Part shown: positions 19,334-39,870 of the stretch, one piece after another
How positions within the stretch are numbered: position 1 is the stretch's first letter
Layout of the letters: each line of letters starts with the position of its first letter
Notes under the pieces: model-generated
What the model was told of the DNA's origin: nothing
Seen by the model: only the letters and a program-made list of their open reading frames with translations
Databases searched by the model: none
From: a virus
Strand: one strand, 5' to 3'
Length of the DNA: 64,000 bases
IMG/VR virus record: IMGVR_UViG_3300042453_003743
Coordinates: 62,001-126,000 of that record
Translations under genes and position numbers: made by a program

Positions 19334-19347
19334 GGCCCCCTCCCCCC

Positions 19348-19388: not shown

Positions 19389-19424
19389 GTTTCAAAACTC
19401 CATCGAAGTAAAGGGAAAACCCCC

Positions 19425-19763
19425 TTATGGGGTTTCCTTGCCCTCCTTTTCCTTGGCGATTCGCACCAACTGGGCCGCGTACTTCTTCATGATCTTGCGA
19501 GCGAAGATCATCTGCTTGGGGGACAGCGATCCGCGACGGATCACCTGTTCCGCGAGGCTGCTTGCAAAGGTCGCATCGACTCCGGTGAACCCGACGCCGT
19601 TGGTGTGCTTGGTGGCCGCGTCCCGCTGCTCGTCCTCCGTCTGCTTGTGGTAGATGGCGACCAGCCCACGGAGGAGCCAACGGTCGTCCGTGGCGATCTT
19701 CTCGCGCACGAACTCAACGGTGAGGGGGGCGGCAGGGGCGGGGGCGGTGGTGGTGCTGTTCAT
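19425..19763 (-). CDS. Conserved small phage protein
   Basis: 112 residues. The segment WLLRGLVAIYHKQTEDEQ, then NGVGFTGVDATF and SPKQ...ARKIMKKYAAQL, is a pattern I recognise from hypothetical proteins in many phages; function unknown. Leaderless architecture: TACAAT ends 6 nt before the ATG at 19763, with TTGACA 18 nt further upstream. The stop codon sits in a hairpin followed by CTTT on the minus strand, a likely terminator. Confidence 0.7.
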   Translation of the reverse strand: MNSTTTAPAPAAPLTVEFVREKIATDDRWLLRGLVAIYHKQTEDEQRDAATKHTNGVGFTGVDATFASSLAEQVIRRGSLSPKQMIFARKIMKKYAAQLVRIAKEKEGKETP

Positions 19764-19794
19764 GCGTGTATTGTAGCACTACCCACCTACCATG

Positions 19795-20010
19795 TCAACC
19801 CCAGTCCTTTCTCATGGTGGGGTCGGCATAGGTTTCCTCGTAGCCTGCGGTGTACGCCTCCAGTTCCTCCGGGTCCGTCAGGGTGACTCGCTCTCCCTTG
19901 TAGGTGCCGTTCGGGTACTTGTGAGGGCTAGGCGCTCTCCCGTACCACGCATCGGCACAACCCCGGTCGTAGGGCGATCCGTGCCAGTTGGGGTAGGTCT
20001 TGGGGTTCAC
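19795..20010 (-). CDS. Small conserved phage protein (GTG start)
   Basis: 71 residues. GTG at 20010 is chosen because GTGA overlaps the stop of the upstream gene and AAAGGGGG precedes it; frames starting further upstream lie inside that gene. The YDRGCADAWYGR...PHKYPNGTYKGERV pattern resembles a small phage family with a D-x-W-Y-G-R motif. Tyr-rich; function unknown. Confidence 0.6.
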   Translation of the reverse strand: MNPKTYPNWHGSPYDRGCADAWYGRAPSPHKYPNGTYKGERVTLTDPEELEAYTAGYEETYADPTMRKDWG

Positions 20011-20345
20011 GCCTGCCCCCTTTCGATGTGGATCACGCAGGAGAGAACATGCTCCCGGTGTTCGTCCCATTCCGGGAGACGCGACTCCCACTCGCTGTAC
20101 GGGGAAATCGCAATGATGTACTCCTCGTAGTAGTCATTGCAGGGCAGCACGGCCTCGGCTGCGGCAGCAGCCTGCTCGGCGGTTTCGGCCCCATGAACGA
20201 AGTAGTCGTGGCCCCCCTTGCACTTCCAGTACTGGGGGCACGCGCCCGTTCCGTCCCACGAATGAGCGCCGTAGTTCTCGCGCATCTGCGTGACAACGAC
20301 AAAGGCCGGGGCGGTGCGGGGAGTGACGTTGGTGGTGGTGTCCAT
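20007..20345 (-). CDS. Conserved small phage protein
   Basis: 112 residues from ATG 20345, six nt after TATACT with TTGACA 17 nt upstream (leaderless). FVVVTQMRENYGAHSWDG and CPQYWKCKGGHDYFV are typical of a phage hypothetical family; the two Cys and His could bind metal. Co-translated with the downstream GTG gene. Confidence 0.65.
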   Translation of the reverse strand: MDTTTNVTPRTAPAFVVVTQMRENYGAHSWDGTGACPQYWKCKGGHDYFVHGAETAEQAAAAAEAVLPCNDYYEEYIIAISPYSEWESRLPEWDEHREHVLSCVIHIERGQA

Positions 20346-20394
20346 GCACACAGTATAGCAAAGTGTCTCTGGGATGTCAACCCCCTACATGATA

Positions 20395-20405
20395 AGTCCG
20401 ATAAC
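20395..20405 (+). promoter_or_regulatory. AGTCCGATAAC motif
   Basis: One of at least seven near-identical copies in the island, just upstream of E3. Confidence 0.5.
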
Positions 20406-20412
20406 GGCCCAC

Positions 20413-20454
20413 TTGACACCGGGGGAACCCATGTGGTACAATCTACTTGGTTGA
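20413..20454 (+). promoter_or_regulatory. Extended promoter element E3
   Basis: TTGACA-N18-TACAAT then CTACTTGGTTGA. It points into the terminator of the convergent gene, so a short RNA of about 50 nt would result. Confidence 0.6.
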
Positions 20455-20470
20455 CGTTTCAGGCGCACAC

Positions 20471-20507
20471 AAAATAATAAAAAACCCCCCGGCAACGCAC
20501 CGGGGGG
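20471..20507 (-). terminator. Strong intrinsic terminator
   Basis: On the minus strand CCCCCCGG-TGCGTTG-CCGGGGGG is followed by TTTTTTATTATTTT. Ends the zinc-motif gene. Confidence 0.85.
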
Positions 20508-20525
20508 CCAGCCCTCACGCTGTAG

Positions 20526-20774
20526 TTAGTCCCATTTCGATTCCCCCGTCGCTATGATGCGGTCCACCAGTTCGTCGGTGGTCATCTGCCAATCGGCAGC
20601 GAGGTCTTCCTGCTCAATGTAGAACCAGTCTGAGCCTTCCGCCTCTTCGCGGGAATCGTAGTAGTGGGCCATTTCCGTGGCACAGTCCTCGCACACATCA
20701 TCGAACGAATCGAGAATGAGAACGCCGCAGGCGCGGCACTGGGTGGGGTTGTCAGCCGGGGTGGTGTTGCACAT
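20526..20774 (-). CDS. Small zinc-finger-like protein
   Basis: 82 residues from ATG 20774, 6 nt after TATACT with TTGACA upstream (leaderless). N-terminal CRACG and CEDCA form a CxxC-x11-CxxC zinc knuckle; the C-terminal half is very acidic. An alternative start at 20789 would lie inside the promoter. A host-protein-binding role is possible for such early proteins. Confidence 0.65.
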   Translation of the reverse strand: MCNTTPADNPTQCRACGVLILDSFDDVCEDCATEMAHYYDSREEAEGSDWFYIEQEDLAADWQMTTDELVDRIIATGESKWD

Positions 20775-20844
20775 GACCGTAGTATACACTAGCCCCTCTG
20801 CGGTGTCAAGAGGCTAGGTGAAGTTTTTACACCTACATGCAAAG

Positions 20845-20885
20845 TCCACCAAGTAGATTCTACCATGGCATGGGCAAAATGTCAA
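20845..20885 (-). promoter_or_regulatory. Extended promoter element E4
   Basis: TTGACA-N17-TAGAAT then CTACTTGGTGGA on the minus strand, about 70 nt upstream of the leaderless promoter for 20774. Confidence 0.65.
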
Positions 20886-20928
20886 CCCCCCACCCCCGGA
20901 GGGGCGAGGGGTTGATGCGGTATGCCGA

Positions 20929-21225
20929 TTACCGCATGGGGTTGACGATGATTCCTTCGACCGCTTCGATGCGCTCCTCCTTGCAGGAGCGCCAGTCCTG
21001 CACATTGAAGTCCCAGTAGCACACCATGTTCGGCGGCATCCTGCGGTTTGCGCCCTTCGCAAGCCGATCAGCGGGGATCAGCGTTTCGTCGGTGGTGCCG
21101 ATTGCGACACGCGGCGTACCATCCAACTTGCGGTAGACGAACCGAACGATGCCGACACGCATGGCCGTGCGGGCGTTGTACGAGGCTTCGGACTTGTGAC
21201 TGACGATGTTGACGAGTGGTGTCAT
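20929..21225 (-). CDS. DUF2693 (WYL_2) SH3-barrel protein
   Basis: 98 residues from ATG 21225, six nt after TATCAT (leaderless). VGIVRFVYRKLDGTPRVAIGTT and MVCYWDFNVQDWRSCKEERIEAV match the DUF2693 layout and parallel the C-terminal domain at 16068-16676. It is an early copy, while the larger relative lies in the AT-rich part. Possibly binds nucleic acid or RNA polymerase; not proven. Confidence 0.7.
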   Translation of the reverse strand: MTPLVNIVSHKSEASYNARTAMRVGIVRFVYRKLDGTPRVAIGTTDETLIPADRLAKGANRRMPPNMVCYWDFNVQDWRSCKEERIEAVEGIIVNPMR

Positions 21226-21292
21226 GCCTGCATGATAGCACAAGCGTTCTAGCGTGTCAAGTGACTTCTGACTCTTTCTGCGGGGGCTAGAC

Positions 21293-21333
21293 TTGACAAA
21301 GCGAAAGTGTTGTGGTACAATCTACTTGGTTGA
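21293..21333 (+). promoter_or_regulatory. Extended promoter element E5
   Basis: TTGACA-N17-TACAAT then CTACTTGGTTGA, followed by an AGTCCGATAAC copy at 21355-21365. Confidence 0.65.
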
Positions 21334-21384
21334 ATAAAATAAAAACTTGTTGTGAGTCCGATAACCAAGGGTGCGCCCATGCCC

Positions 21385-21413
21385 TTGACAGCGGTGGAGG
21401 GGTGTGGTAAACT
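21385..21413 (+). promoter_or_regulatory. Sigma70 promoter with normal leader
   Basis: TTGACA-N17-TAAACT. The leader of about 48 nt carries a hairpin GGGCC-gtgt-GGCCC (21423-21436) and TAGGAGA before the ATG. This is the exception to the leaderless pattern. Confidence 0.7.
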
Positions 21414-21467
21414 CGGCGCATCGGGCCGTGTGGCCCTACTCACCACCTCTCTCTAGGAGAACGACAG

Positions 21468-21860
21468 ATGACCTGCACCACCCCCTGCCTCCCCGGTTTT
21501 GAGTCCATCCTCGCCGCCTCCCCGGCCCCCGTCAACTCCGCCGCCACGACCCGTCGCCGTGGCCGCTCCGGCCCCCGGGGCGTCCTCTACACCGTCTCCA
21601 CGGAGGAGTCGGCCCTCGGGCCTTGGGTCCACCGTGAGATCAGCGCGCAAGTGTGGCCCAACGGACGGGGCCAGCGTGTTGCCCGCATTCGGATGCAGGC
21701 CAACGCCTCGGACAGGATCGGCTACTCCTTCGGCATGGTCACCGTGACCGACACCAACGGTACGCCCATCTGCATCGGCATGGACAAGGAGCAGATGCGG
21801 TCGGTCGGTGCCGCCCTCCTCGCCGCAGCGAACTCCGCCCGCGCCAAGTGGCGCAAGTGA
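21468..21860 (+). CDS. Basic protein, possibly abundant early product
   Basis: 130 residues, Arg/Ala/Pro/Thr-rich in the N-terminal third, then strand-rich (SFGMVTVTDTNGTPICIGM) with a C-terminal helix. It is one of few genes in the island with a leader, a hairpin and a clear Shine-Dalgarno (TAGGAGA), suggesting high expression. A small DNA-binding protein is possible from the positive charge; no known family recognised. Confidence 0.65.
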   Translation: MTCTTPCLPGFESILAASPAPVNSAATTRRRGRSGPRGVLYTVSTEESALGPWVHREISAQVWPNGRGQRVARIRMQANASDRIGYSFGMVTVTDTNGTPICIGMDKEQMRSVGAALLAAANSARAKWRK

Positions 21861-21935
21861 GGACCGGACAGAGAGGGGAGGGGTCGCATGACCCCTCCCC
21901 TTGACACTCGCACCACCATCGGATACAATACGCCC

Positions 21936-22118
21936 ATGAAGAACAGCACCACCGAACTCCGCTTCCTCTCCGCCATGCTCTGGCTCTCATCCTTCGCGGG
22001 CACCGCGCTCTGCGTGAACTGGGCGATGGATGGGCACTACCTCCTGTCCGCTTTCACAGGTCTACTGGTTCTGGGCTGCGGATGCCTGATCGCCCATGTT
22101 CACTACCTGCGGAAATAA
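21936..22118 (+). CDS. Small two-span membrane protein
   Basis: 60 residues from ATG 21936, 6 nt after TACAAT with TTGACA upstream (leaderless). Two hydrophobic segments (about residues 8-24 and 30-50). The 41-bp promoter-start region is almost the same as that of the next gene, showing recent duplication. An inner-membrane modifier of the host is possible. Confidence 0.6.
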   Translation: MKNSTTELRFLSAMLWLSSFAGTALCVNWAMDGHYLLSAFTGLLVLGCGCLIAHVHYLRK

Positions 22119-22168
22119 ATCTTCCGGCATCACTTGACACTCGCACCACCAACGGATACAATACACCC

Positions 22169-22447
22169 ATGAAGCGCACCACCACCAAAGACCTGATTGA
22201 TTCCATCCGCACCCTCAACCGCGAGTTGGGCTTCCCCGATGATGGAGGCACCGCCCTGGGCCTCGGTTCGATTCCCGGTTCGTTCTGCCTCTCGGGAGCC
22301 TACGGAGGCTGGCAGATTCAGCGATTCGTCGGACAGGGTTTGGAGTCCGTCACCACCGGATACCGCCCAAAGCGGCAAGTCCGGGAACTAGTAGAGGCAA
22401 TGGTGCAGGGTGTGCGCCTGCACCGCGCCTACCAGATGATCGCATAA
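22169..22447 (+). CDS. Hypothetical early protein
   Basis: 92 residues, leaderless (TACAAT, 6 nt, ATG). The middle is Gly-rich (SIPGSFCLSGAYGGWQIQRF) and the end helical. It is followed at the stop codon by the first copy of the three-hairpin module. No family recognised. Confidence 0.6.
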   Translation: MKRTTTKDLIDSIRTLNRELGFPDDGGTALGLGSIPGSFCLSGAYGGWQIQRFVGQGLESVTTGYRPKRQVRELVEAMVQGVRLHRAYQMIA

Positions 22448-22522
22448 CGAGGTGGTGCTCGTCAACCGAAGAGGCTAACGCCCTGCCCCGGATGTTCCGG
22501 GGCTAGGTTTTTTTATTGGCAG
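22445..22522 (+). ncRNA. Three-hairpin RNA module, copy 1
   Basis: Starts at the TAA stop: hairpin ACGAG-gtggtg-CTCGT, then a linker, hairpin AGGC-taac-GCCCT, then CCCCGGA-tgt-TCCGGGG with TTTTTTTATT. A second copy at 23840-23917 keeps all three stems with base changes on both arms. Directly followed by E6. Likely a structured 3' end or released small RNA. Confidence 0.6.
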
Positions 22523-22562
22523 TTGACACCTGCAAACGCCCGTGGTACAATCTACTTGGTTC
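22523..22562 (+). promoter_or_regulatory. Extended promoter element E6
   Basis: TTGACA-N17-TACAAT then CTACTTGGTTCA. Convergent with E7, 35 bp away. Confidence 0.65.
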
Positions 22563-22596
22563 ACAAATGTATTGTTATTCTCTTTTTCCCACAGCC

Positions 22597-22635
22597 GACC
22601 AAGTATATTCTACCATGAGGGTATTGCGGTGTCAA
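22597..22635 (-). promoter_or_regulatory. Extended promoter element E7
   Basis: Minus-strand TTGACA-N17-TAGAAT then ATACTTGGTCG. Faces E6; a GTTATCGGTCT near-copy of the AGTCCGATAAC motif follows at 22639-22649. Confidence 0.6.
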
Positions 22636-22713
22636 GTCGAGTTATCGGTCTGTGTATAACTTTGATTGTTGGGGTCACTTGACACCGTGGCGCGGGTGTG
22701 GTATCATCATTGC

Positions 22714-23277
22714 ATGAGCACCACTCACACCAACCGTTTCGAAACCGTTCGCACCCTTGCCATCGGCAACTTCATCAACCTACTGACCCGCGCCACGGAG
22801 GCCGATCACCAAGCCGCCAGCGCATGGTACAATGACGCGCAGGCGTTCGCTAACTCGCTCCGCCCCATCACCGGATGGAACCTTGAGGTGGCCGCTAGCG
22901 TCGTGTCAGCCTTCTCGCCCCGCGTCACTTGGGGCCACAACAAGGCGAAGGCGCTCCAGTATGCGCAGGGCATCACGCCGAAGGGGCTGGGCTCCCATGT
23001 CGCTGCGGCGGATCGCTGCGTGGCGGACGGGTTCAACGGGCTGCGCGGGCTCAAGACGAACGCATTCGCCCGTGCCATTGCCGGGGACACGCAGGCCGTC
23101 GTGGTGGATGTGTGGATGTGCCGTGCTGCGGGGCTCGGGAAGGACGCTCCGAACAAGACGGAATATCGGGCAATCGCGGACGCGATCCGCACCATCGCAT
23201 CCACGCGGGTCGTGAACATGGAACCCGCCACGCTTCAGGCTCTCCTGTGGATCATCATCCGGGGGAAGGCGGAGTAA
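22714..23277 (+). CDS. DUF7178-like phage protein
   Basis: 187 residues from ATG 22714, six nt after TATCAT (leaderless). AASVVSAFSPRVTWGHNKAKAL (key: A-x-x-V-x-A-F-S-P-R-x-x-W), GLKTNAFARAI and VVVDVWMCRAAGL match a phage family of unknown function, perhaps a helix-hairpin-helix/glycosylase-like helical fold. A larger relative is at 17036-18484. Being early and host-like in GC, this copy probably acts in the cytoplasm. Confidence 0.65.
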   Translation: MSTTHTNRFETVRTLAIGNFINLLTRATEADHQAASAWYNDAQAFANSLRPITGWNLEVAASVVSAFSPRVTWGHNKAKALQYAQGITPKGLGSHVAAADRCVADGFNGLRGLKTNAFARAIAGDTQAVVVDVWMCRAAGLGKDAPNKTEYRAIADAIRTIASTRVVNMEPATLQALLWIIIRGKAE

Positions 23278-23324
23278 TCCGCCACCCCCTTGACAGGCCG
23301 CACCCCATAGAGTATACTACACCC

Positions 23325-23570
23325 ATGACCAACACCACCACCGAAACCCCCATCGACTACAGAACCGACCCCCGTTACAAGTACGCCTTCGCATACGGAG
23401 TCCTCTCGCATTGCATGACCGTCGTTGCCGAACTGGTCGAACGGTCCAAGCGTGAGGGGGAGATGATCGACCCCAACAACCCGGACCTGAAGTGGGCCAT
23501 CACCCAGTTCAAGATCGCAGACGACAATCTCCACACAGACTCCCAGCACACAAGGTACAATACGCCATGA
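23325..23570 (+). CDS. Hypothetical early protein
   Basis: 81 residues from ATG 23325, 6 nt after TATACT (leaderless). Mostly helical (YGVLSHCMTVVAELVERSKRE). Its last codons contain TACAAT, the -10 of the next gene, and its TGA overlaps that gene's ATG. Confidence 0.6.
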   Translation: MTNTTTETPIDYRTDPRYKYAFAYGVLSHCMTVVAELVERSKREGEMIDPNNPDLKWAITQFKIADDNLHTDSQHTRYNTP

Positions 23571-23842
23571 GCACCACCAACTGGCACAAGCATTTCGGTT
23601 CCGCTATGGACTCGGATCGAACCGTGGAATGCGTTCAATGCGGTTCTTCCATGATCGGAGATGGCCCTGCACAGCCCGTCATCTGCACCGAATGCTACAA
23701 CCACTCGGGCATCATCCTGCGGGATCGGGTGATCTGCATGGAGTGTGCCTCTGAAGTTCTGGAACACGGAACGCTAGTCACCCCCGACACTCACCCCGAT
23801 GGGTTCACTTGCGCGGATTGTGGGGAAACTTCAACGATCTAA
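23567..23842 (+). CDS. Double zinc-ribbon-like protein
   Basis: 91 residues with four CxxC knuckles (CVQCG, CTECY, CMECA, CADCG), enough for two zinc sites. ATGA overlap with the upstream gene, and also TACAAT 5 nt before its ATG, so it may be made from both a coupled and a leaderless message. Followed at its stop by copy 2 of the three-hairpin module. Confidence 0.65.
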   Translation: MSTTNWHKHFGSAMDSDRTVECVQCGSSMIGDGPAQPVICTECYNHSGIILRDRVICMECASEVLEHGTLVTPDTHPDGFTCADCGETSTI

Positions 23843-23917
23843 CGAGGTGGTGCTCGTCAACCGAAAAGGATTCGTCCCTGCCCCGATTCGTTCGGGGCTA
23901 GGTTTTTTTATTGGCAC
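23840..23917 (+). ncRNA. Three-hairpin RNA module, copy 2
   Basis: Same plan as 22445: ACGAG-gtggtg-CTCGT, AGGA-ttcg-TCCCT, CCCCGA-ttcgt-TCGGGG and TTTTTTTATT. The second hairpin shows a paired change relative to copy 1 (C-G to A-T), which supports selection on RNA structure. Confidence 0.6.
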
Positions 23918-23957
23918 TTGACATCGGACAGGATGTATGGTAGAATCTACTTGGTGA
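23918..23957 (+). promoter_or_regulatory. Extended promoter element E8
   Basis: TTGACA-N17-TAGAAT then CTACTTGGTGAA, about 70 nt upstream of the leaderless promoter for 24029. Confidence 0.65.
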
Positions 23958-24028
23958 ACAAAACAAAAATGATTTCTCTCATCACGCACCCCCTTGACAC
24001 CCGTGGCCGTTCGTGATACAATGGGTCC

Positions 24029-24394
24029 ATGACACCACTCAACCACATCCCCAACCGAACCGATTCCTGCATCATGCTCATCGAGTCCATCCGCATGGCT
24101 CACTCCGACCTCTCATGCACGAAGGCCAACCCGGAAGAAACCAATGCGGCCCTCGCTTTCTGCGAGATCGCCGTCAGCATCCCCCCGTCGTGGTTCACGC
24201 ATGAGGAGCGCATCATGGTCAAGGAAACCATCGACACGCTCTACGGTGACGCTCTGAAGTTCATCATCGACCTCGACGGAGGACACGTTTCCTTCATCAA
24301 CAAGTGCAACAACCTCTGCCACGGGCGTTCGTTGGAGTCGTTCGTGGATGTGATGATGCGGCAGCACATGGCGGAGTTTGGATCGGTAGCCTGA
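24029..24394 (+). CDS. Hypothetical early helical protein
   Basis: 121 residues, leaderless (TACAAT, 6 nt, ATG; TTGACA upstream). Helical with several Cys/His and a DLDGGHVSF stretch. No family recognised. Confidence 0.6.
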   Translation: MTPLNHIPNRTDSCIMLIESIRMAHSDLSCTKANPEETNAALAFCEIAVSIPPSWFTHEERIMVKETIDTLYGDALKFIIDLDGGHVSFINKCNNLCHGRSLESFVDVMMRQHMAEFGSVA

Positions 24395-24401
24395 AGGTGA
24401 A

Positions 24402-24433
24402 GTCCACCCCCCGGCCAACGCCGGGGGGTGGAC
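24402..24433 (+). terminator. Perfect 13-bp GC-rich hairpin
   Basis: GTCCACCCCCCGG-ccaacg-CCGGGGGGTGGAC, 8 nt after the stop. No T tract follows, so it could be a stabilising 3' end or a processing structure rather than a classical terminator. Confidence 0.6.
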
Positions 24434-24470
24434 GGATAGTAGTCACTACTGATAGTAGACCCCCGATAAT
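24434..24470 (+). repeat. GATAGTAG repeat cluster
   Basis: GGATAGTAGT and CTGATAGTAG flank an ACTACT inverted copy. Similar clusters occur at 27252, 31351 and 35870. Confidence 0.5.
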
Positions 24471-24490
24471 ATTTCAATAATATTTGGGAC

Positions 24491-24531
24491 TTGACACGCC
24501 GGGATGGTCATGATACAATCGTCTTGGACGA
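24491..24531 (+). promoter_or_regulatory. Extended promoter element E9
   Basis: TTGACA-N17-TACAAT then CGTCTTGGACGA, a divergent member; an AGTCCGATAA copy follows at 24544-24553. Confidence 0.55.
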
Positions 24532-24610
24532 CATTCAAAACAGAGTCCGATAATAAAAAAGATGGACGAGATGGCTTGACACGGACGGGGTGGCATGGTA
24601 GAATGCCAAC

Positions 24611-24841
24611 ATGAACAACCCCAACAACTACAACGACGACGACGCTGAATACTCCGACCTCATGCCCTACGACGATGCGTTCACCGACGAGGACTTCGTT
24701 CAGGAACTCATTGACGAGGGATACAGCGAGGATGAGGCCCGCCGCATGGTTGGCGAGTACGACGCCAACGAATACTACGGCATTGACGAGGACAACGACC
24801 GGGATGTTCCCGACTTCGTTGACGATGGAGACTTCGAATGA
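24611..24841 (+). CDS. Extremely acidic small protein (DNA-mimic candidate)
   Basis: 76 residues with about 29 Asp/Glu, 3 Arg and no Lys. A short helical pair (QELIDEGYSEDEARRMV) in the middle resembles a UBA-like turn. Leaderless (TAGAAT, 6 nt, ATG). Small acidic early phage proteins often mimic DNA to block host nucleases or regulators; that is an inference from charge only. The ATG of the next gene overlaps its stop. Confidence 0.65.
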   Translation: MNNPNNYNDDDAEYSDLMPYDDAFTDEDFVQELIDEGYSEDEARRMVGEYDANEYYGIDEDNDRDVPDFVDDGDFE

Positions 24842-25212
24842 ATGTAAGAATCATTCGGAGCGACAGGCCGACCACCAGCAAAAGGTGGGTCAAAAGACGA
24901 ATCAACGAAACCCTTCGGGGAATCTTCTTTGCATCAGCCGTCATCAGCACGAAGGACTCTGGAAAGAGTTGTAATGGAATGTCAGTAGACATTCACCCTT
25001 TCCCGACCGGAACGATCATTTTCGATGTCCAACTGGGAACGGACTGGACCCGAAAGGGAGTTGAAGCATTCTTGCGCTACATGGAGCAGTCGAACGGTGT
25101 AGTGAGCGTGACCTTGACAACCACAACCGACTCTGATACAATCCACCCATGCGAAAGCCACCCAACCACCGACCCGACCGACCGACCACTTGCGACTTCA
25201 GCGACTTGCTGA
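24838..25212 (+). CDS. Hypothetical basic protein coupled to acidic protein
   Basis: 124 residues, Arg/Lys-rich at the N-terminus (RPTTSKRWVKRRINETLRG) with a strand-helix core. The ATGA overlap couples it to the acidic protein, so an acid-base pair is possible. Its last 20 codons double as the promoter of the next gene and overlap it by 64 bp, so the C-terminal tail is probably not important. Confidence 0.5.
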   Translation: MNVRIIRSDRPTTSKRWVKRRINETLRGIFFASAVISTKDSGKSCNGMSVDIHPFPTGTIIFDVQLGTDWTRKGVEAFLRYMEQSNGVVSVTLTTTTDSDTIHPCESHPTTDPTDRPLATSATC

Positions 25213-25391
25213 ACGAGGTCGCCAAGTTCACCGAAACCAACCCCCTGTGGTTTGAGAACCCGGAGGACTTGGCGCGAATGGCAAGAGCCTACGGCATCAT
25301 CACGATGATGAGTGGACCGGATTCATGCACGGAGGATGAGTGCGAATACATCCTCAACCTTCACCGCACCCTTCAGGAGAACCACAAGTGA
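25149..25391 (+). CDS. Hypothetical early protein
   Basis: 80 residues, leaderless (TACAAT, 6 nt, ATG). Acidic C-terminal half (SCTEDECEYILNLHRTLQ). The promoter lies inside the previous ORF. Coupled to the next gene by GTGA. Confidence 0.6.
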   Translation: MRKPPNHRPDRPTTCDFSDLLNEVAKFTETNPLWFENPEDLARMARAYGIITMMSGPDSCTEDECEYILNLHRTLQENHK

Positions 25392-25756
25392 ACCCCACCA
25401 ACAAGTTTGACGGATTCTTCAGCGGGAACGGAGAAATCCCGCAGAATGTGGAGATGCGACCCCCCACGGTGCCGATGATGGTTCACACCCTCATCGTCCT
25501 GACCGGAACCACGCCGGAGTGGTACAAGAACGAGAAGAACCGCATCATTGCCTGCTCGTTCTTGGAGGCCATTGCCGATGGGGTCAAGGAGTTCAGGGAC
25601 GGGAAGGAGAAGGATTCTCCGATCTCCCTCTCCGAAGCCGCGTTCCTGATGATGACCTCCGAGATTCTGTTCGCCACGCAGCAGTTCGCCTCCGACGAGG
25701 AGCGCGAGCGTTGGCCTGACCGACCGGACACCGTGAGCGACGAGGACGAGGAGTGA
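25388..25756 (+). CDS. Hypothetical early protein (GTG start)
   Basis: 122 residues. GTG at 25388 is chosen because it overlaps the stop of the upstream gene (GTGA) and AGGAG lies 8 nt upstream. Helical with an acidic end (SDEDEE). No family recognised. Confidence 0.6.
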   Translation: MNPTNKFDGFFSGNGEIPQNVEMRPPTVPMMVHTLIVLTGTTPEWYKNEKNRIIACSFLEAIADGVKEFRDGKEKDSPISLSEAAFLMMTSEILFATQQFASDEERERWPDRPDTVSDEDEE

Positions 25757-25757
25757 C

Positions 25758-25785
25758 TTGACAACCCGCGCCCATCGGGTACAAT
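25758..25785 (+). promoter_or_regulatory. tRNA-Lys promoter
   Basis: TTGACA-N16-TACAAT ends 9 nt before the tRNA. Confidence 0.7.
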
Positions 25786-25794
25786 GGGCATCCC

Positions 25795-25867
25795 GCCTCT
25801 GTAGCGCAGTTGGTAGCGCAGTTGACTTTTAATCAATTGGTCGTGGGTTCGAACCCCACCGGAGGCA
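25795..25867 (+). tRNA. tRNA-Lys (TTT)
   Basis: Full cloverleaf: acceptor GCCTCTG/CGGAGGC, anticodon loop CTTTTAA, T arm GTGGG-TTCGAAC-CCCAC. CCA not encoded. The next ATG is only 2 nt after the discriminator base. Confidence 0.9.
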
Positions 25868-25869
25868 TT

Positions 25870-26136
25870 ATGAAAGACAACGAAATCCTAATTCACGCAC
25901 TCACGGAGTCAGACAAACTGCAAATAATTTTTGCAGAACTCATGGAGTTTTGGTTGGAGGGAAAGGAACCTCCCACTTGGTTGGTTGATCAGTACTACGA
26001 CCAACTGGAAGAAGTTCAGGTGGCTTTCAGCGCCGACAAGTTGCATGAGGTCGTGGCGCAGAAGAACCGAGACTTCTACGACGACCTTCAAAATAAACTT
26101 GAAGGCTTGCTTGACAACACCCCGGACTTGTTCTAG
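25870..26136 (+). CDS. Small acidic protein directly after tRNA-Lys
   Basis: 88 residues, acidic and helical. The ATG begins 2 nt after tRNA-Lys, so tRNA 3' cleavage would yield a near-leaderless message. There is no other ribosome-binding site. Its 3' end contains the TTGACA/TAGAAT promoter of tRNA-Leu. Function unknown. Confidence 0.65.
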   Translation: MKDNEILIHALTESDKLQIIFAELMEFWLEGKEPPTWLVDQYYDQLEEVQVAFSADKLHEVVAQKNRDFYDDLQNKLEGLLDNTPDLF

Positions 26137-26147
26137 AATGGGGTCAC

Positions 26148-26220
26148 GGCACGGTAGACCAACGGCAGAGTCAATTGACTCAAAATCAATAAAGTGTGGG
26201 TTCGAATCCCACCCGTGCTA
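26148..26220 (+). tRNA. tRNA-Leu (CAA), short variable loop
   Basis: Acceptor GGCACGG/CCGTGCT, anticodon arm ATTGA-CTCAAAA-TCAAT, T arm GTGGG-TTCGAAT-CCCAC. The variable loop is 5 nt (AAAGT) rather than the long arm usual for bacterial tRNA-Leu. Own promoter at 26111-26139. Confidence 0.8.
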
Positions 26221-26325
26221 CTAAAATAGAGGCGGATCTTCTTCAAGACCGTCCAAGTTGAGAAGGTGAAAGTCTGACGAGTCCGATTCTTTGTAATCGT
26301 AGTGCAGTAAAGTAGCCTTCGACTT
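26221..26325 (+). other. Spacer between tRNA-Leu and tRNA-Arg
   Basis: No ORF. A near-copy of the AGTCCGATAA motif occurs at 26279-26288. Possible pairing of AAGTTGA with TCGACTT would enclose the middle, but no tRNA-like T arm exists. Confidence 0.4.
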
Positions 26326-26399
26326 GTTCCCGTAGCCCAGTTGGATAGAGCAGCCGCCTTCTAAGCGGCAGGTCGCTGGTTCGAATCCAGCCGGGAACG
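26326..26399 (+). tRNA. tRNA-Arg (TCT)
   Basis: Perfect acceptor GTTCCCG/CGGGAAC, anticodon loop CTTCTAA, T arm TCGCTGG-TTCGAAT-CCAGC. Reads AGA. Confidence 0.9.
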
Positions 26400-26435
26400 C
26401 TTGACAAGAAAGGAAACGGTGCTACAATGCTGTAC

Positions 26436-26462
26436 ATGAACACCCCAAAGAGTATATTATAA
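26436..26462 (+). CDS. Eight-residue leader peptide candidate
   Basis: TTGACA-N16-TACAAT, 7 nt, then ATG with the frame MNTPKSIL and TAA. The promoter-start layout is the same as for real island genes, but the frame closes after 8 codons, one being ATA, decoded by the tRNA-Ile encoded just downstream. It could be an attenuator-like leader or an accidental start for the tRNA transcript. Confidence 0.4.
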   Translation: MNTPKSIL

Positions 26463-26468
26463 GTTTTG

Positions 26469-26527
26469 GCGGTGGTTCAAACAAACCGCATAGAGGCAAC
26501 CTACGGTTGCACGGTTCGCAGAGCCGT
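26469..26527 (+). ncRNA. Three tandem hairpins before tRNA-Ile
   Basis: GCGGT...ACCGC (26469-26489), GCAACC-tac-GGTTGC (26496-26510) and ACGGTTC-gca-GAGCCGT (26511-26527) lie back to back between the eight-codon frame and the tRNA. They may be a processed leader or a small RNA. Confidence 0.5.
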
Positions 26528-26541
26528 ACAACTCTGCATAC

Positions 26542-26617
26542 GGAAGGGTGGCTGAATCGTAGTTAGAGCGCATGCCTTATAAGCGTGAATATGTGGGTGC
26601 AACTCCCGCCCCTTCCA
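26542..26617 (+). tRNA. tRNA-Ile (TAT)
   Basis: Acceptor GGAAGGG/CCCTTCC, anticodon loop CTTATAA, T arm GTGGG-TGCAACT-CCCGC (unusual T loop). Reads ATA, a rare codon in GC-rich bacteria. Confidence 0.8.
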
Positions 26618-26640
26618 CTTCCCCCAACCAAAGGAACGAG

Positions 26641-26847
26641 ATGGATCTCAACAAGATCAGAGAGTGCTTGACAACGTTGGAAGACTTCGCCGCCATTCTT
26701 GATGATGGCATGGCTCCTGTCACGCAGGAGGAGATCGAAATCATGGCAGAGGAACTTCCCAAGATCATCTCCACTCTCAAGAAGGAAACCGATGTCAGCA
26801 CGGGCACCGATATGTACGTCAAGTACAGCGGCTTCTGTGACGGCTAA
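26641..26847 (+). CDS. Small acidic helical protein
   Basis: 68 residues from ATG 26641 with AAGGAAC upstream, 23 nt after tRNA-Ile. Acidic helices (TTLEDFAAIL, EEIEIMAEELPKI). Cotranscribed with the tRNA. No family recognised. Confidence 0.6.
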   Translation: MDLNKIRECLTTLEDFAAILDDGMAPVTQEEIEIMAEELPKIISTLKKETDVSTGTDMYVKYSGFCDG

Positions 26848-26898
26848 AAGTTTTTGTTTTTTGCTTGACAACCCCCAACCACAAGGTACAATAGACAC

Positions 26899-27180
26899 AT
26901 GAACTTCGACTTCAACAACATCGCCCTGATCGCCCTCTCGCTCTTTGCCGGATACTTCGGCCTCGCCTACATGAAGGCCCGCTTTGAGGACAGGATGCGC
27001 GCCTACACGCAGCGCATGGATGATCTTCAGACTTGGTTCGACCGTGAGAACGAGCGCATCATGGATCGGATTCGGACTCTTGATGTCCGCGTGAATGATC
27101 TCCGTTTCAACTACGAGACTCACGCCGAATGCAAGAGCAAGTACCCGGCGGAGAAGAACTACTACAACACGGAAGTCTAA
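26899..27180 (+). CDS. Membrane-anchored coiled-coil protein
   Basis: 93 residues, leaderless (TACAAT, 6 nt, ATG). One hydrophobic segment at residues 8-26 followed by a long charged coiled coil. Topology resembles small phage membrane anchors. A terminator follows at 27206-27242. Confidence 0.6.
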   Translation: MNFDFNNIALIALSLFAGYFGLAYMKARFEDRMRAYTQRMDDLQTWFDRENERIMDRIRTLDVRVNDLRFNYETHAECKSKYPAEKNYYNTEV

Positions 27181-27205
27181 ATCCGCTCTAGACTTCCTCT
27201 CATAC

Positions 27206-27242
27206 CAGAGAGCCCCGCAATGGGCTCTCTGTTTTTATTTTG
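27206..27242 (+). terminator. Intrinsic terminator
   Basis: CAGAGAGCCC-cgcaat-GGGCTCTCTG then TTTTTATTTT. Confidence 0.85.
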
Positions 27243-27251
27243 ACAGTAATC

Positions 27252-27290
27252 TACTGATAGTAGTTTTGGATCGGATAGTAGTCCGATAAC
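27252..27290 (+). repeat. GATAGTAG cluster and AGTCCGATAAC copy
   Basis: CTGATAGTAGT, CGGATAGTAGT and then AGTCCGATAAC (27280-27290) immediately upstream of E10. Confidence 0.5.
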
Positions 27291-27305
27291 TAGGCGGCAC
27301 TCGGC

Positions 27306-27346
27306 TTGACAAGTGGAAGGTGATGTGGTACAATCATATTGGTGGA
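27306..27346 (+). promoter_or_regulatory. Extended promoter element E10
   Basis: TTGACA-N17-TACAAT then CATATTGGTGGA, upstream of the leaderless promoter of the MoxR gene. Confidence 0.6.
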
Positions 27347-27423
27347 CAATATAAAAATGGATATTTCAAAATATTTGCGATAGGGTACTTGACACCCCAA
27401 AAAGATTGTGGTACAATGTTCGC

Positions 27424-28695
27424 ATGAACAGCAACATCGACCGCCGCAAGCAGAAGTTCCTCAAGGCTCTCACCGACCTGTACGGAGTCCCATCCTCCAT
27501 CGGTGAGGCACGGTACACCCGTGAGCAGTGCATCAACGCCTTCCACAACACTTACAAGGTGTCGCCCAACGACAACTACAGCACCCTCCCGGCTTGGATC
27601 GTGCAAGACAAGTCCCGTCGCCTTGGCCGGGGACTCTACAACATTCCCGAAACGGTTGTCCTGACCGACGCCATCGAACCCGAAAATGTTTACGAAACTT
27701 CAGGACAGGATTTGACACCACAGGAAACTTGTGGTAGAATGGAAACCATGAACAGCAGCAACTACAACCTCGTCATGCCGTCCAACGATGTTTCCCTCGT
27801 CCCCGTCAAGAACGAAACTTTCGTTCCGTGGGGACACTACGAGGACATCAATGCCATCCTCGCCTCCAAGCAGTTCGCTCCGGTCTACATCACGGGTCTG
27901 TCGGGCAACGGCAAGACCACGATGATCGAACAGGTCTGCGCGAACACCGGACGGGAGTGCATCCGTGTCAACATCACCGCCGAAACCGACGAGGATGACC
28001 TGATCGGTGGGTTCCGCCTCATCAACGGCGAAACCAAGTTCGTGTTCGGTGGAGTCGTGCAGGCCATGCAGCGTGGCGCAATCCTCCTGTTGGACGAGAT
28101 CGACTTGGGAACGGAGCGCATGATGTGCCTTCAGCCCGTGCTTGAGGGCAAGGGTGTCTACATCAAGAAGATCGGAATGTTCGTCAAGCCCGCTCCCGGC
28201 TTCAATGTGGTCGCCACCGCCAACACGAAGGGCAAGGGCGAGTCTGATCGGTTCGTCGGCACCCGCTGCATGAACGAGGCGTTCCTTGACCGCTTCTCCT
28301 ACTGGTTTGAGCAGGAGTACGCTGATAGGGTGGTGGAGGCCCGCATCATCATCCGCAAGATGAAGGCGTATGGCAAGGAGGACAAGGACTTCGCGCAGTA
28401 CCTCGTCAAGTGGGCGGAAACGATCCGCTTGGGCTTCAAGGAGGGCGGCTTGGATGACATCATCACGACCCGTCGCTTGGAGGAGGTCTGCAAGGCGTTC
28501 GCCATCTTCAACGACAAGGAGAAGGCGATCAAGTTGACTCTCACCCGGTTCGACCCGGCTACGCAGGAGGCGTTCTACAACCTCTACACCAAGATCGACC
28601 CGACCATCCTTCCGCCTGTGGACGGGATGGACAAGGAGAAGCAGGCCGTTCCCGCTCCCTCCCCGTCTGACACCAACTACGCAATCAACGCCTAA
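27424..28695 (+). CDS. MoxR/CobS-like AAA+ ATPase with N-terminal targeting domain
   Basis: 423 residues from ATG 27424, six nt after TACAAT (leaderless). Residues 1-75 form a small domain repeated in the 74-residue protein at 28713. The ATPase core follows: Walker A GLSGNGKTTM (about residue 160), Walker B AILLLDEIDLG, sensor-1 VVATANTKGKG and an arginine-finger segment DRFSYWF. Cyanophage CobS-like proteins are the closest known group. MoxR ATPases usually work with VWA proteins such as the one encoded at 29012 to remodel complexes. An internal promoter and start at 27748 can give a short form lacking the first domain. Confidence 0.8.
   Translation: MNSNIDRRKQKFLKALTDLYGVPSSIGEARYTREQCINAFHNTYKVSPNDNYSTLPAWIVQDKSRRLGRGLYNIPETVVLTDAIEPENVYETSGQDLTPQETCGRMETMNSSNYNLVMPSNDVSLVPVKNETFVPWGHYEDINAILASKQFAPVYITGLSGNGKTTMIEQVCANTGRECIRVNITAETDEDDLIGGFRLINGETKFVFGGVVQAMQRGAILLLDEIDLGTERMMCLQPVLEGKGVYIKKIGMFVKPAPGFNVVATANTKGKGESDRFVGTRCMNEAFLDRFSYWFEQEYADRVVEARIIIRKMKAYGKEDKDFAQYLVKWAETIRLGFKEGGLDDIITTRRLEEVCKAFAIFNDKEKAIKLTLTRFDPATQEAFYNLYTKIDPTILPPVDGMDKEKQAVPAPSPSDTNYAINA
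27712..27748 (+). promoter_or_regulatory. Internal promoter inside MoxR gene
   Basis: TTGACA-N17-TAGAAT, 7 nt, then in-frame ATG 27748 at codon 109. It has the exact layout of the other leaderless starts and would produce a 315-residue ATPase without its N-terminal domain. Confidence 0.6.
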
Positions 28696-28712
28696 CAAAA
28701 AGGAAAAAGAAA

Positions 28713-28937
28713 ATGCCTTACATGAACAAGCGCAATCGTTTCGTCGCAGCCGCCAAGCAGTACGCGGATGCCAACCTCAACGGCGACTACAGCAACTTCA
28801 AGAAGTCTGACCTCCTCACGGTCGCACAGTCGATCAACATGAAGGGGACTCCGACTTGGGTTGTCAAGGAGTACGCAAGCGCGGTGAGCCGTGGCGTCTA
28901 CGACCTGACGAGCCTGATCGCTCCTGTGACTGTCTGA
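28713..28937 (+). CDS. Stand-alone paralog of the MoxR N-terminal domain
   Basis: 74 residues with AAGGAAAAAG before the ATG, 17 nt after the MoxR stop. It matches MoxR residues 1-75: an R-K/N-R-F-x-x-A start, then TPTWVVKEYASAVSRGVYDL against LPAWIVQDKSRRLGRGLYNI. It may compete with or replace the targeting domain of the ATPase. It lies between the ATPase and VWA genes and is probably part of the same complex. Confidence 0.65.
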   Translation: MPYMNKRNRFVAAAKQYADANLNGDYSNFKKSDLLTVAQSINMKGTPTWVVKEYASAVSRGVYDLTSLIAPVTV

Positions 28938-29011
28938 TGCTGTTCTGATGTGGGGTGGGGCAATCGGCCCCACCCCTTGACAAGACGCACCACCTGTGGT
29001 AGAATACCGAC

Positions 29012-31252
29012 ATGAACACTTCTCTCTCCATCTTCGCCCGCGCTCTCGCAACCGAAAACCTCTCGTTCTCGTTCGATGCCAACGCAGACACCGCATCGTT
29101 CGACACCAAGAGCCGTCACCTCGTCATGCCCGTGTGGGATGTCTCCGACACCCTTCAGACCATGCTTGTCGCCCATGAGATCAGCCACGCCCTGTGGACT
29201 CCCCATGAGCGCAGTCAGGAGTTGCTGACGCAGGCGGAGAAGGACGGCTACTGCATCAAACTCCTCCACCACATTGCGAATGTCATTGAGGATGTCCGCA
29301 TTGAGAAGTTGATGAAGGCCAAGTACCCCGGCACCCGCAGAGACTTCTTCTTGGGCTACAAGGAGATCGTGGATGCCGACCTGTTCAAGTTCAAGTCGAT
29401 GGACTTGAAGAACACCAACATCATCAACCGACTCAACCTCCACTTCAAGTGGGGTGTCCCCGGCTTCCTGCCCATCGACCTCAACGCGGACGAGAACGAG
29501 ATCGCCATGTTGGTCGATGCCGTTCAGACCTTCGATCAGGGGTTTGAGTTGGCAAAGCACCTCTACAAGCATCCTTCCATGAAGGATATGCGCGAGAAGT
29601 ACGAGGCGCAGGCTGAAAAGCAGAAGAAGTCCTCCGGCACGGACGGGGATCAGGATGATGACGGCACGATGTCGCAGACTGATCTTTCGGACAGCAATCT
29701 TGGCATGGTCGATATGCCCTGTGAGTTCGGTCGCAAGAACGGCGAGAAGTTCCACGCCACGACCCTGACCATCAGCCCGGTGGTCAAGATCGAAAACAAC
29801 ATCATCACCACCGACGAGATGCTTGAGTCCTACGAGGACGCGATCATCGGAAACCCGTATGGGAATCCCACGCTTGACTTGACCAACTACCGCTCCTTCG
29901 TCAAGGAGTCCGATGCGTTCGTTCGCCAGTTGGTCGCGCAGTTTGAGCGTCGCAAGGCTGCGGACGAGATTCGCCGTGAGCGGCCCAAGCAGACCGGGAT
30001 GCTGAACCTTGACCGCCTCCACCAGTTCCGCACCCACGATGACATCTTCCTGTCCAAGATCATCAAGCAGGACGGCAAGAATCACGGCATCGTGTTCTTG
30101 ATCGACTTCTCCGGGTCTATGACCACCGTGCTTGACCATTGCATCCTTCAGGTGTTCCAGTTGGTTTGGTTCTGCGAGAAGGCCAAGATTCCGTTTGAGG
30201 TGTTCGGCTTCACCAACATGAACCTGATCGGCAACCGTGGCAAGGAGGAGGATGAGCGGCACCGCAAGTTCTGCCGCCAACACTCCATTGAGGAGCGGTA
30301 TGTTCCGCTGTACCCCACCGAAACGCAGAACCCTCGCCCGGACAGCATTGTGTGCGGCAACACCCGGCTCATTTCGTTGGCTTCGTCGGCTGATTCGCCT
30401 GCCAAGCGTGAGCGTCTGCTTGCCTTTATCTACGAGTCCTCCGTGCAGCGTACTCGCAGTCAGGTGTTCTCGCTTGGTGGTACTCCGACCGTGGAGGCCA
30501 TGATCCTCACCACTCAATACATGAAGAAGTGGGTGCAGGACAACAATGTGCAGATTCCGACCCTGATGCTCGTCACCGATGGACAGCCCAACGGTGTCTC
30601 GTTGGACCCGACCTCGCCCATGTATTCGGATGTGCCGTATCAGATTCGGGAGAATATGTCCCTCATGGTCCGCAACGACATCCTTCAGACCATGACCCGC
30701 ATCGACAACAAGGAACACGACGGCATGGGCTTGGGCAATGTGGTGGTGTCCGTGATGCTTGATGATCTTCGTCAGACGATGAACGCGAGGACTGTCGGTA
30801 TGTATGTGGGTGGTCGCACCTTCAACGATTCGCTCTACCGTGGCTTCTGCCTTCTGCCGCAAGACCATGAGCAGATGGACAGGATCATTGAGCAGGCACG
30901 AAAGAATGGAGATTGGAGAGCGACGATAAGCCTCCGCGAAAGCCCCCGCTACGAGATGGCTCAACAGCAGTACATGAGTGAGGGGTGCATCATCCTCCCC
31001 ACCGTGAGCAACCCCGGCTACGATGCCTTCTTCCTCATCAAGACTCCCAAGATCGTCAAGGACGAGGAGGCGATTGTGGAGAGCGGAACCTTCGTCAAGG
31101 TGAAGAACACCTTCGTCAAGACGATGGGCAAGAGAGCCGGGAGCCGTGTGTTCCTCTCCAAGTATGTTGACATCGTGGCGGGTCAGCCTGTGCCAAAGAA
31201 CGGGGGCAAGTTGTACGACCTCCCCGCCCACAACGGACTTGAAAGAAAGTAA
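29012..31252 (+). CDS. VWA protein with N-terminal HExxH motif (CobT-like partner of MoxR)
   Basis: 746 residues, leaderless (TAGAAT, 6 nt, ATG). An AHEISHALWTP zinc-site motif is near residue 55, a basic/acidic linker near 200-240, and the VWA domain begins near residue 365 with VFLIDFSGSM (MIDAS D-x-S-x-S), GGTP and TLMLVTDGQ. Cobaltochelatase CobT-like and cyanophage peptidase/VWA proteins have this plan. With the ATPase it probably forms a metal-dependent remodelling or proteolytic machine directed at a host complex. The target is unknown. Confidence 0.8.
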   Translation: MNTSLSIFARALATENLSFSFDANADTASFDTKSRHLVMPVWDVSDTLQTMLVAHEISHALWTPHERSQELLTQAEKDGYCIKLLHHIANVIEDVRIEKLMKAKYPGTRRDFFLGYKEIVDADLFKFKSMDLKNTNIINRLNLHFKWGVPGFLPIDLNADENEIAMLVDAVQTFDQGFELAKHLYKHPSMKDMREKYEAQAEKQKKSSGTDGDQDDDGTMSQTDLSDSNLGMVDMPCEFGRKNGEKFHATTLTISPVVKIENNIITTDEMLESYEDAIIGNPYGNPTLDLTNYRSFVKESDAFVRQLVAQFERRKAADEIRRERPKQTGMLNLDRLHQFRTHDDIFLSKIIKQDGKNHGIVFLIDFSGSMTTVLDHCILQVFQLVWFCEKAKIPFEVFGFTNMNLIGNRGKEEDERHRKFCRQHSIEERYVPLYPTETQNPRPDSIVCGNTRLISLASSADSPAKRERLLAFIYESSVQRTRSQVFSLGGTPTVEAMILTTQYMKKWVQDNNVQIPTLMLVTDGQPNGVSLDPTSPMYSDVPYQIRENMSLMVRNDILQTMTRIDNKEHDGMGLGNVVVSVMLDDLRQTMNARTVGMYVGGRTFNDSLYRGFCLLPQDHEQMDRIIEQARKNGDWRATISLRESPRYEMAQQQYMSEGCIILPTVSNPGYDAFFLIKTPKIVKDEEAIVESGTFVKVKNTFVKTMGKRAGSRVFLSKYVDIVAGQPVPKNGGKLYDLPAHNGLERK

Positions 31253-38420: not shown

Positions 38421-39269
38421 TTATTTTAAGCTTAAAGATTCATCTTGGCGGGATTTGATATATTCATTCATTTTATCCAAGTACCCAAGATTTCTCAATT
38501 CTTTAAAAATTAAATTTTCAACAGAATTTTCACCTGATTTTTTCAGAGATGAATTTCTCATATCTTTTATCTTGGTTTTAATTTTTTCAAAAGATTCATC
38601 TTCTGCGCTGCTGTTTATAAGATTGTCTATTTTTTGGGTAAAATAATCTACCTTTGTTTTGATAAGAGGATCTTCTAAATTCACCTCTTCTTGTTTTGGA
38701 TGCTGTATCCAATCGTTGCTTGTGAGACTGAAAACTCCTTGACCAGTTGGAGTTGGATCATCTTTTCCTTGTGCGTAAAGCTCTACATCGTGGCCATAAA
38801 TTTTAATATCATGTATTTGTGCCCATAGCTGCTTTTTATCTTTTAGATACTCATCTAGTAAATCTGGACAATCTGGCATTTTTTCTTTGTCAATTAATAC
38901 GTGAACATCAATATCAGAATAATCTGTATAGTTAAAATTTGCATTACCGCCCACCATTATAATATCTACAATTGCTTCCTCTGGGATTTGTGCAAACTCG
39001 GCCCAAGTTTTTCCTATTTCTAGAAGTTTATCTTTGACTTCTTGTTTCAACATATCTTTATCCCACAGTTTTTGATTTAATTCATTGTGGTATTGGAGAG
39101 TTAAAGAAGAAGCCTCTTCAAGATGTTCTTTGAAAGTCTTTCTTTTCTTTTTTGAAATTTCAATAGCTGCAAGCTGGTCTACAGCTTCTTCTTTGCTATA
39201 GTGTGTTCCGAGAAGTTTTTCACCAGAAGAATCTCTGACTTCCCATTTGTTTCCGCGCTTTACAATCAT
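38421..39269 (-). CDS. Nucleotidyltransferase-fold protein with capsid-type signal
   Basis: 282 residues. A first 38-residue beta domain (VKRGNKWEVRDSSGEKLLGTHY) is followed by KTFKEHLEEASS, resembling the T4 targeting and cleavage peptide, then a nucleotidyltransferase core: VGGNANFNYTDYSDIDVHVL (G-[GS]-x9-DxD) near residue 115. Such folds add nucleotides or act as minimal nucleotidyltransferase toxins. GATAAATA late promoter 5 nt upstream. Substrate unknown. Confidence 0.6.
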   Translation of the reverse strand: MIVKRGNKWEVRDSSGEKLLGTHYSKEEAVDQLAAIEISKKKRKTFKEHLEEASSLTLQYHNELNQKLWDKDMLKQEVKDKLLEIGKTWAEFAQIPEEAIVDIIMVGGNANFNYTDYSDIDVHVLIDKEKMPDCPDLLDEYLKDKKQLWAQIHDIKIYGHDVELYAQGKDDPTPTGQGVFSLTSNDWIQHPKQEEVNLEDPLIKTKVDYFTQKIDNLINSSAEDESFEKIKTKIKDMRNSSLKKSGENSVENLIFKELRNLGYLDKMNEYIKSRQDESLSLK

Positions 39270-39283
39270 GAAGATATTTATCC

Positions 39284-39321
39284 AATAAAAAACCCGGTTT
39301 TTCAGATGCGGGAAAACCGGG
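39284..39321 (-). terminator. Terminator of tmRNA transcript
   Basis: CCCGGTTTT...AAAACCGGG followed on the minus strand by TTTTTTAT. Confidence 0.75.
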
Positions 39322-39705
39322 AAACCCCACTGCTTTAAGCAGCCATCCGCATTGGTGCGGCTTTTATATTTGCAACTGTTTATTTACGACACTTGTTACC
39401 CGTGTCGGGTATCTCCTTCTTCATTACTCTGCGCCAATCGAAGCCAGTTCAGCCCCGTATTGATCTAAAGCCTAGGACTTTAGATCGTGCCCCGCTGTAA
39501 CGAGGACTTGTTTCGCCGTCTCCAGAGTTTACAGTAGCTCTAGGTTAGGCTAATGGAGCCGAGGGGAATCGAACCCCTGTCTTGTCGCATTTCAATCCGA
39601 GATCAACAATACCGAAAGCGTAGCGAGGGGCCTGCACCCATGCTCAATCACCGTTTGCAACCAATGATCCTAGTCAGCATCACACACTGAACTACGCATG
39701 TAGAT
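39322..39705 (-). ncRNA. ssrA: Circularly permuted (two-piece) tmRNA
   Basis: On the minus strand the 3' half comes first: P2 strand TGCGACAA (39582-39589), T arm AGGGG-TTCGATT-CCCCT and acceptor end CGGCTCC-A (to 39554). After a 97-nt spacer the 5' half begins GGGGCTGAACTGGCTTCGA (39456), whose GGGGCTG pairs with the acceptor strand and TTGGCGCA (39430-39437) with the P2 strand. A pseudoknot-like ACCCG/CGGGT, CGACAC/GTGTCG follows, then tag frame GCA...TAA (39335-39373) encoding ANIKAAPMRMAA, with the stop inside a GCTGC-TTAA-AGCAG-type hairpin. CCA not encoded. The 5' limit is approximate. Confidence 0.85.
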
Positions 39706-39712
39706 TATTTAG

Positions 39713-39795
39713 TGCGAGCAGAAGGATTCGAACCTTCGTAGGCTGCAGCCAACAGATTTACAATCTGCCCTCGTTGTCCACTTGAGTATACTCGC
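39713..39795 (-). tRNA. tRNA-Tyr (GTA)
   Basis: Acceptor GCGAGTA/TGCTCGC, anticodon loop TTGTAAA, long variable arm as expected for tRNA-Tyr, T arm GAAGG-TTCGAAT-CCTTC. Minus-strand promoter TTGACT-N16-TATACT 10 nt upstream probably transcribes it with the tmRNA. Confidence 0.85.
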
Positions 39796-39870
39796 AACGA
39801 TTACAGTATATCTCAACACACTTTCAAGTCAATTAATTGACTTATCTTTTTTAAAGTATATACTATTATC

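Follow-up and report, generated by a model that had tools for sequence, protein, structure and literature searches.

The 64,000-nucleotide stretch of DNA analysed in this study (hereafter the window) spans positions 62001-126000 of IMG/VR record IMGVR_UViG_3300042453_003743, a T4-like phage record of 137,341 bp, and contains at positions 39287-39613 of its minus strand a gene for a circularly permuted, two-piece transfer-messenger RNA (tmRNA). This tmRNA is real and phage-encoded, and its conserved sequence features indicate that it is probably functional. A working phage-encoded two-piece tmRNA is, with considerable confidence, the best overall explanation of the locus. A phage-encoded permuted tmRNA as such is not new, the kind being already known from other aquatic phages; published examples comprise phage Melnitz and 53 ARAGORN-called cases in an isolate database, 50 of which are aquatic (PMC9004378). 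The surprise is rather the structured, phage-specific spacer that separates the two pieces. This conserved, structured intervening sequence (IVS) is the most unusual feature of the gene, and an earlier note on the same DNA had recorded it only as a 97-nt separation.

Identification of the permuted tmRNA gene

ARAGORN called a permuted tmRNA at 39244-39643 on the minus strand, and the Rfam model tmRNA_permuted (RF04321) matched 39335-39613 of the same strand over its full length (model positions 1-213; 81.8 bits, E 4.2e-14), which far exceeds chance given a gathering cut-off of 47 bits. Both programs agree with the order that the earlier note had read from the sequence, with the 3′ piece lying 97 nt ahead of the 5′ piece. 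The complete order on the minus strand is a promoter-like site, tRNA-Tyr, an uncalled tRNA-like element, the tmRNA 3′ piece, the 97-nt IVS and the tag-bearing 5′ piece.

The covariance-model check proposed in the earlier note gave a divided answer, since the merged RF04321 model was passed but none of the three lineage models was: the locus scored 46.7 bits with beta_tmRNA (RF01850, cut-off 84), 39.2 bits with the cyano model (RF01851, cut-off 70) and 17.6 bits with the alpha model (RF01849, cut-off 50). The nearest lineage is beta; among the relatives tested, too, RF01850 gave the highest lineage score in almost every case (30-56 bits), though never one over the cut-off. Because the seed of beta_tmRNA is narrow (PMC11915505), it can be suggested, but not concluded, that this tmRNA forms a lineage of its own.

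Conserved anatomy of the two pieces

Related loci were fetched from viral contigs with a 19-base coding-piece pattern (16 contigs), a spacer-start pattern (28 contigs), a spacer-core pattern (40 contigs) and the neighbouring gene (7 loci), with overlaps among the fetches. In total, about 50 related phage contigs carry the tmRNA, and natural covariation among their variants maps out a two-piece tmRNA. Both pieces were parsed in 51 loci; the first pseudoknot (PK1) and the tag were compared in 48 and the second pseudoknot (PK2) in 50.

The 3′ (acceptor) piece (39554..39613, minus strand, as are all features below) was delimited by the RF04321 alignment, and its pairs covary across the 51 loci. 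The 5′ (coding) piece, delimited by RF04321 together with the sequence, runs from GGGGCTG to a T run (39287..39456). As the earlier note had recognised, two helices join the pieces. The acceptor 5′ strand GGGGCTG (39456-39450) pairs at 7/7 positions with CGGCTCC of the 3′ piece (39561-39555), and the P2 5′ strand TTGGCGCA (39437-39430) pairs with TGCGACAA (39589-39582) with one internal mismatch, a position that is likewise unpaired in the Rfam model. The 3′ piece further contains a T stem AGGGG/CCCCT with the loop TTCGATT (39578-39562) and the discriminator A (39554), after which CCA is not encoded (TTA stands there instead).

Six forms of the acceptor stem occur across the 51 loci (GGGGCTG/CGGCTCC, GGGGTCG/CGACTCC, GGGACCG/CGGTTCC, GGGGCCG/CGGCTCC, GGGCCTG/CGGGTCC and GGGCCTA/TAGGTCC), each fully paired at 7/7 positions, with covariation at positions 4-7. 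The alanine identity pair G3-U70 is kept in 51/51 loci, and compensating changes were also seen in P2 and in the T stem.

The coding piece of two-piece tmRNAs has been described as PK1, tag and PK2 (PMC3985003), and all three are present here, so that the anatomy appears complete. PK1 (39372..39407), the pseudoknot that the earlier note had placed ahead of the tag frame, is of the H type. Its first stem (S1), CGACAC/GTGTCG (39407-39402/39392-39387), covaries to CGTT/AACG, and in its second stem (S2), GTAAC/GTTGC (39399-39395/39376-39372), GTAAC changes to GCAAC opposite GTTGC. A five-pair S2 turned up in 16% of shuffled-loop trials, and the sequence evidence for S2 taken alone is moderate; it is strengthened by the retention of S2 with both S1 types and by the resulting distance of 10 or 11 nt to the tag. 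The stop codon lies in the loop of a conserved hairpin (CTGC TTAAA GCAG, 39330..39342), in line with the earlier reading, and varies between TAA and TGA. PK2 (39293..39330) follows this hairpin. Its stem GTGGG/CCCGC (39330-39326/39312-39308) was found in 50/50 loci, and its second stem CCCGGTTTT/AAAACCGGG (39321-39313/39301-39293) has several compensating forms. The T run after PK2 (39292-39287) is a probable terminator.

Extent of the tag

The tag is probably the eight-residue AAPMRMAA, encoded from GCC 39361 by eight codons plus stop (39335..39361); the comparison of loci makes this the better call rather than a proven one. In each locus, the first alanine codon downstream of an upstream GCA (GCC or GCT) opens an eight-codon frame that is intact and in frame in 48/48 loci. 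The RF04321 resume consensus UAAaU|GCaAACGA was aligned to this downstream GCY in loci L045 and L002, which represent two length classes of the region.

ARAGORN, like the earlier note, starts the tag at GCA 39373 and thereby obtains 12 residues (ANIKAAPMRMAA), an extent that we regard as unlikely. It is favoured by the nearly invariant AACAGTT ahead of this GCA and by the RF04321 alignment of the window itself, whose tag is without the AACGA part of the resume consensus; this alignment places the resume site on GCA 39373 and not on GCC. However, the GCA overlaps GTTGC, the 3′ strand of PK1 S2, which explains the near-invariance of the preceding bases. Moreover, the distance from GCA to stop, taken in 43 loci, is 39 nt in 21 (including L002) and 40 nt in 22 (including L045), so that a frame opened at GCA is not conserved and the extra codons are in frame in 21/43 loci only. 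The four upstream codons GCA AAT ATA AAA (ANIK; 39362..39373) probably represent the last bases of PK1 followed by spacer nucleotides, and the first four residues of the longer tag are probably wrong. Apart from the alignment of the window, the shorter tag has against it that it ends in MAA, unlike the LAA of well-studied tags.

We also considered the 22/43 loci with 40 nt between GCA and stop as a +1 frame class with shifted-frame tags, and rejected it, given that the GCA lies in PK1 S2 and the eight-codon tag is in frame everywhere. These observations suggest that programs calling tags automatically can place the start within PK1, four codons too far upstream.

A structured intervening sequence

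The IVS (39457..39553, 97 nt; 71-99 nt among relatives) is, judging from covariation, a conserved structured domain seen only in the tmRNAs of these phages. Its structure comprises three hairpins, a closing GCC/GGC helix and a proposed kissing contact, and over 25 distinct sequences it has 91.5% standard pairs and 13 pairs with a change on both sides. The covariation score was 0.160 versus 0.087 in shuffles, none of which reached it (0/500), and slid controls stayed at or below 0.065. When parts of the region were folded as single sequences, the z-scores were unremarkable (the IVS stretch folded was offset by 6 nt), and the argument consequently rests on covariation and not on energy.

Most of this support comes from hairpins 1 and 3. 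Hairpin 1 (CTAGAG/CTCTGG, 39522..39543) has 4/6 pairs changed on both sides, and hairpin 3 (GATCTAAAG/CTTTAGATC, loop TCCTAGG, 39462..39486), which is missing from the 71-73-nt forms, has 7/9. The stem of hairpin 2 (CCTCG/CGGGG, 39490..39505) is 100% paired with one double change. The loop CTGTAA of hairpin 1 (39534-39529) is complementary to the loop TTACAG of hairpin 2 (39500-39495), and a kissing contact between them is proposed. One double change supports it, the pair in columns 25-60, which goes from C-G to U-A in the window; the pair in columns 26-59 fails in 16/25 sequences, which weighs against the contact.

A covariance model built of the spacer (R1; 102.5 bits for the window) found the spacer once per phage genome, in every case between the two tmRNA pieces. 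All 16 loci fetched by the coding-piece pattern, which involves no selection for the spacer, carry it (16/16), so that the way of fetching does not explain its presence, whereas it partly explains the count of invariant spacer bases. No copy was found by R1 in four cultured phages (Melnitz, HTVC008M, S-CRM01 and Cr30). Spacer sequence patterns gave no match in 84,980 bacterial and archaeal species, although diverged copies could escape exact patterns.

Two other identities of the spacer were considered. A known riboswitch or ribozyme was rejected, as an Rfam search of 39457-39553 with E values up to 10 returned no such family and only tmRNA models span the region. A stand-alone motif was likewise rejected, because all viral hits of the core pattern lie within tmRNAs and genome hits were nil, with the same caveat for exact patterns. 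The IVS of permuted tmRNAs has been described as a part absent from the mature RNA; here it appears to be under strong structural selection, and its confinement, as seen, to one phage group makes its role directly testable.

Comparison with known permuted tmRNAs

The window tmRNA shares with the RF04321 family of Alphaproteobacteria, Betaproteobacteria and Cyanobacteria the gene order, the acceptor stem and P2 joining the pieces, the succession PK1-tag-PK2 and G3-U70. It differs in passing the merged model only and in its long structured IVS; RF01850 has about 30 model positions between the acceptor strands compared with 97 nt in the window. Methylophilales phage Melnitz (MZ577097) and Pelagibacter phage HTVC008M likewise encode permuted two-piece tmRNAs. 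Unlike that of the window, these are of the alpha type (106.7 and 83.8 bits, respectively, against a cut-off of 50) and lack the R1 spacer; a glutamine riboswitch in Melnitz sits after the tmRNA and not between its pieces. The T4-like freshwater Synechococcus phage S-CRM01 (NC_015569) also encodes a permuted tmRNA and has a relative (49% identity) of the gene adjoining the window tmRNA, whereas its tmRNA is of the cyano type (74.3 bits, cut-off 70) and without the R1 spacer. HTVC008M and S-CRM01 match RF04321 as well. In a BLASTN search of the window tmRNA against cultured phages, the matches were confined to T arms or tRNAs and were about 35 nt long.

Among the relatives, the tmRNA parts (acceptor type, spacer form, PK1 form, tag and PK2) mix in many combinations (L003, L005, L017, L027 and others), as if recombination between related phages had shuffled them. 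Two further relatives, L022 and L024 (3300042894_002308 and 3300042898_003369), were recognised by 56% identity in the neighbouring gene. No tmRNA match was obtained in the large record of L022 (G003, 135,768 bp), which is also without a spacer match, and ARAGORN found no tmRNA at locus L024.

Proposed function and alternatives

Comparison at the sequence level establishes the permuted order, the covarying helices, G3-U70, PK1, the tag frame with its stop, PK2 and the structured spacer; from the tmRNA family we infer how the RNA would be processed, charged and used for tagging. The tRNA-Tyr and the tmRNA would be transcribed as one precursor, in which the acceptor and P2 strands of both pieces would pair and the IVS, once folded, would cap the acceptor stem. 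The precursor would be cleaved ahead of GGGGCTG by host RNase P, 3′ processing would take off the spacer after A73, and CCA would then be added. The host alanyl-tRNA synthetase could charge the acceptor piece via G3-U70, and host SmpB would deliver the tmRNA to ribosomes stalled during infection, where alanine and AAPMRMAA would be added.

The structured spacer would help the precursor to fold and present its ends for processing. Since it joins both acceptor-stem strands in the precursor, its folding would keep the two ends close to each other and give the processing sites their form. The most likely role is that of a scaffold for processing or folding, and this is the weakest step of the scheme. 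Self-cleavage, a released small RNA or a ligand sensor may also be envisaged. That the spacer is a new functional RNA, either a processing element, perhaps a self-cleaving one, by which the tmRNA matures without host enzymes, or a released small RNA, we consider quite unlikely.

A gene for SmpB was not found in the phage record, which is a point against an active tmRNA; its function would depend on the SmpB of the host. The same finding would suit a decoy or inhibitor of host trans-translation, yet a decoy needs none of the complete coding piece (PK1, tag, stop and PK2) whose frame and stop are kept in 48/48 loci, and we judge this alternative very unlikely. A decaying copy of a host tmRNA acquired by the phage would account for the failure to pass any lineage cut-off. 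However, compensatory changes in the acceptor stem, P2, T stem, PK1 and PK2, together with the invariant G3-U70, point to structural selection, so that covariation in the main refutes decay and leaves it highly improbable. Permuted tmRNAs are mostly bacterial genes, but a bacterial locus misassigned to a virus can virtually be dismissed here because the record has a T4-like major head protein, terminase, tail sheath, DNA polymerase and helicase, the gene recurs in about 50 viral contigs, and the spacer patterns are without a match among the bacterial and archaeal species searched.

Upstream elements and surroundings

The tmRNA is preceded by a tRNA-Tyr(GTA) (39712..39795) in the same presumed transcript, called by ARAGORN and matched by Rfam RF00005 with 53.9 bits. 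Just before it lies a promoter-like TTGACT-16-TATACT (39805..39832) with 10/12 matches to the consensus, a consensus match only. No terminator was found between tRNA-Tyr and the tmRNA, and their cotranscription, asserted in the earlier note, is on these two grounds plausible.

Between the two genes, an uncalled tRNA-like element (39618-39697, minus strand) received no ARAGORN or Rfam call. It has a 7-bp acceptor GCGTAGT/GCTACGC, D-like, long anticodon-like and T-like arms, a D-loop without GG and the T-loop TGCAGGC. Copies fall into classes of 80-81 and 88 nt (L009, L011, L013, L017, L031, L055 and others), and in L013 the element stands in a tRNA cluster apart from the tmRNA. Another tRNA-like stretch without a call, about 110 nt long (CAGTGATCC...GGGTTCAAGTCCCATATCACTG) and with a good T arm at its end, lies upstream of the tmRNA in L012 and L015; it was not found in the window.

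The marker genes of the record are T4-like; gp46 has about 42% identity to cyanophages, and for ribonucleotide reductase the matches, at about 54%, are to phages with many different hosts. The composition changes sharply within this one phage record, with a G+C content of 50-62% at window positions 19000-31000 compared with 28-48% around them. This region holds four tRNAs and many short open reading frames on both strands, and genes at 27406-31252 match the PHROGs families 'porphyrin biosynthesis' and 'peptidase'.
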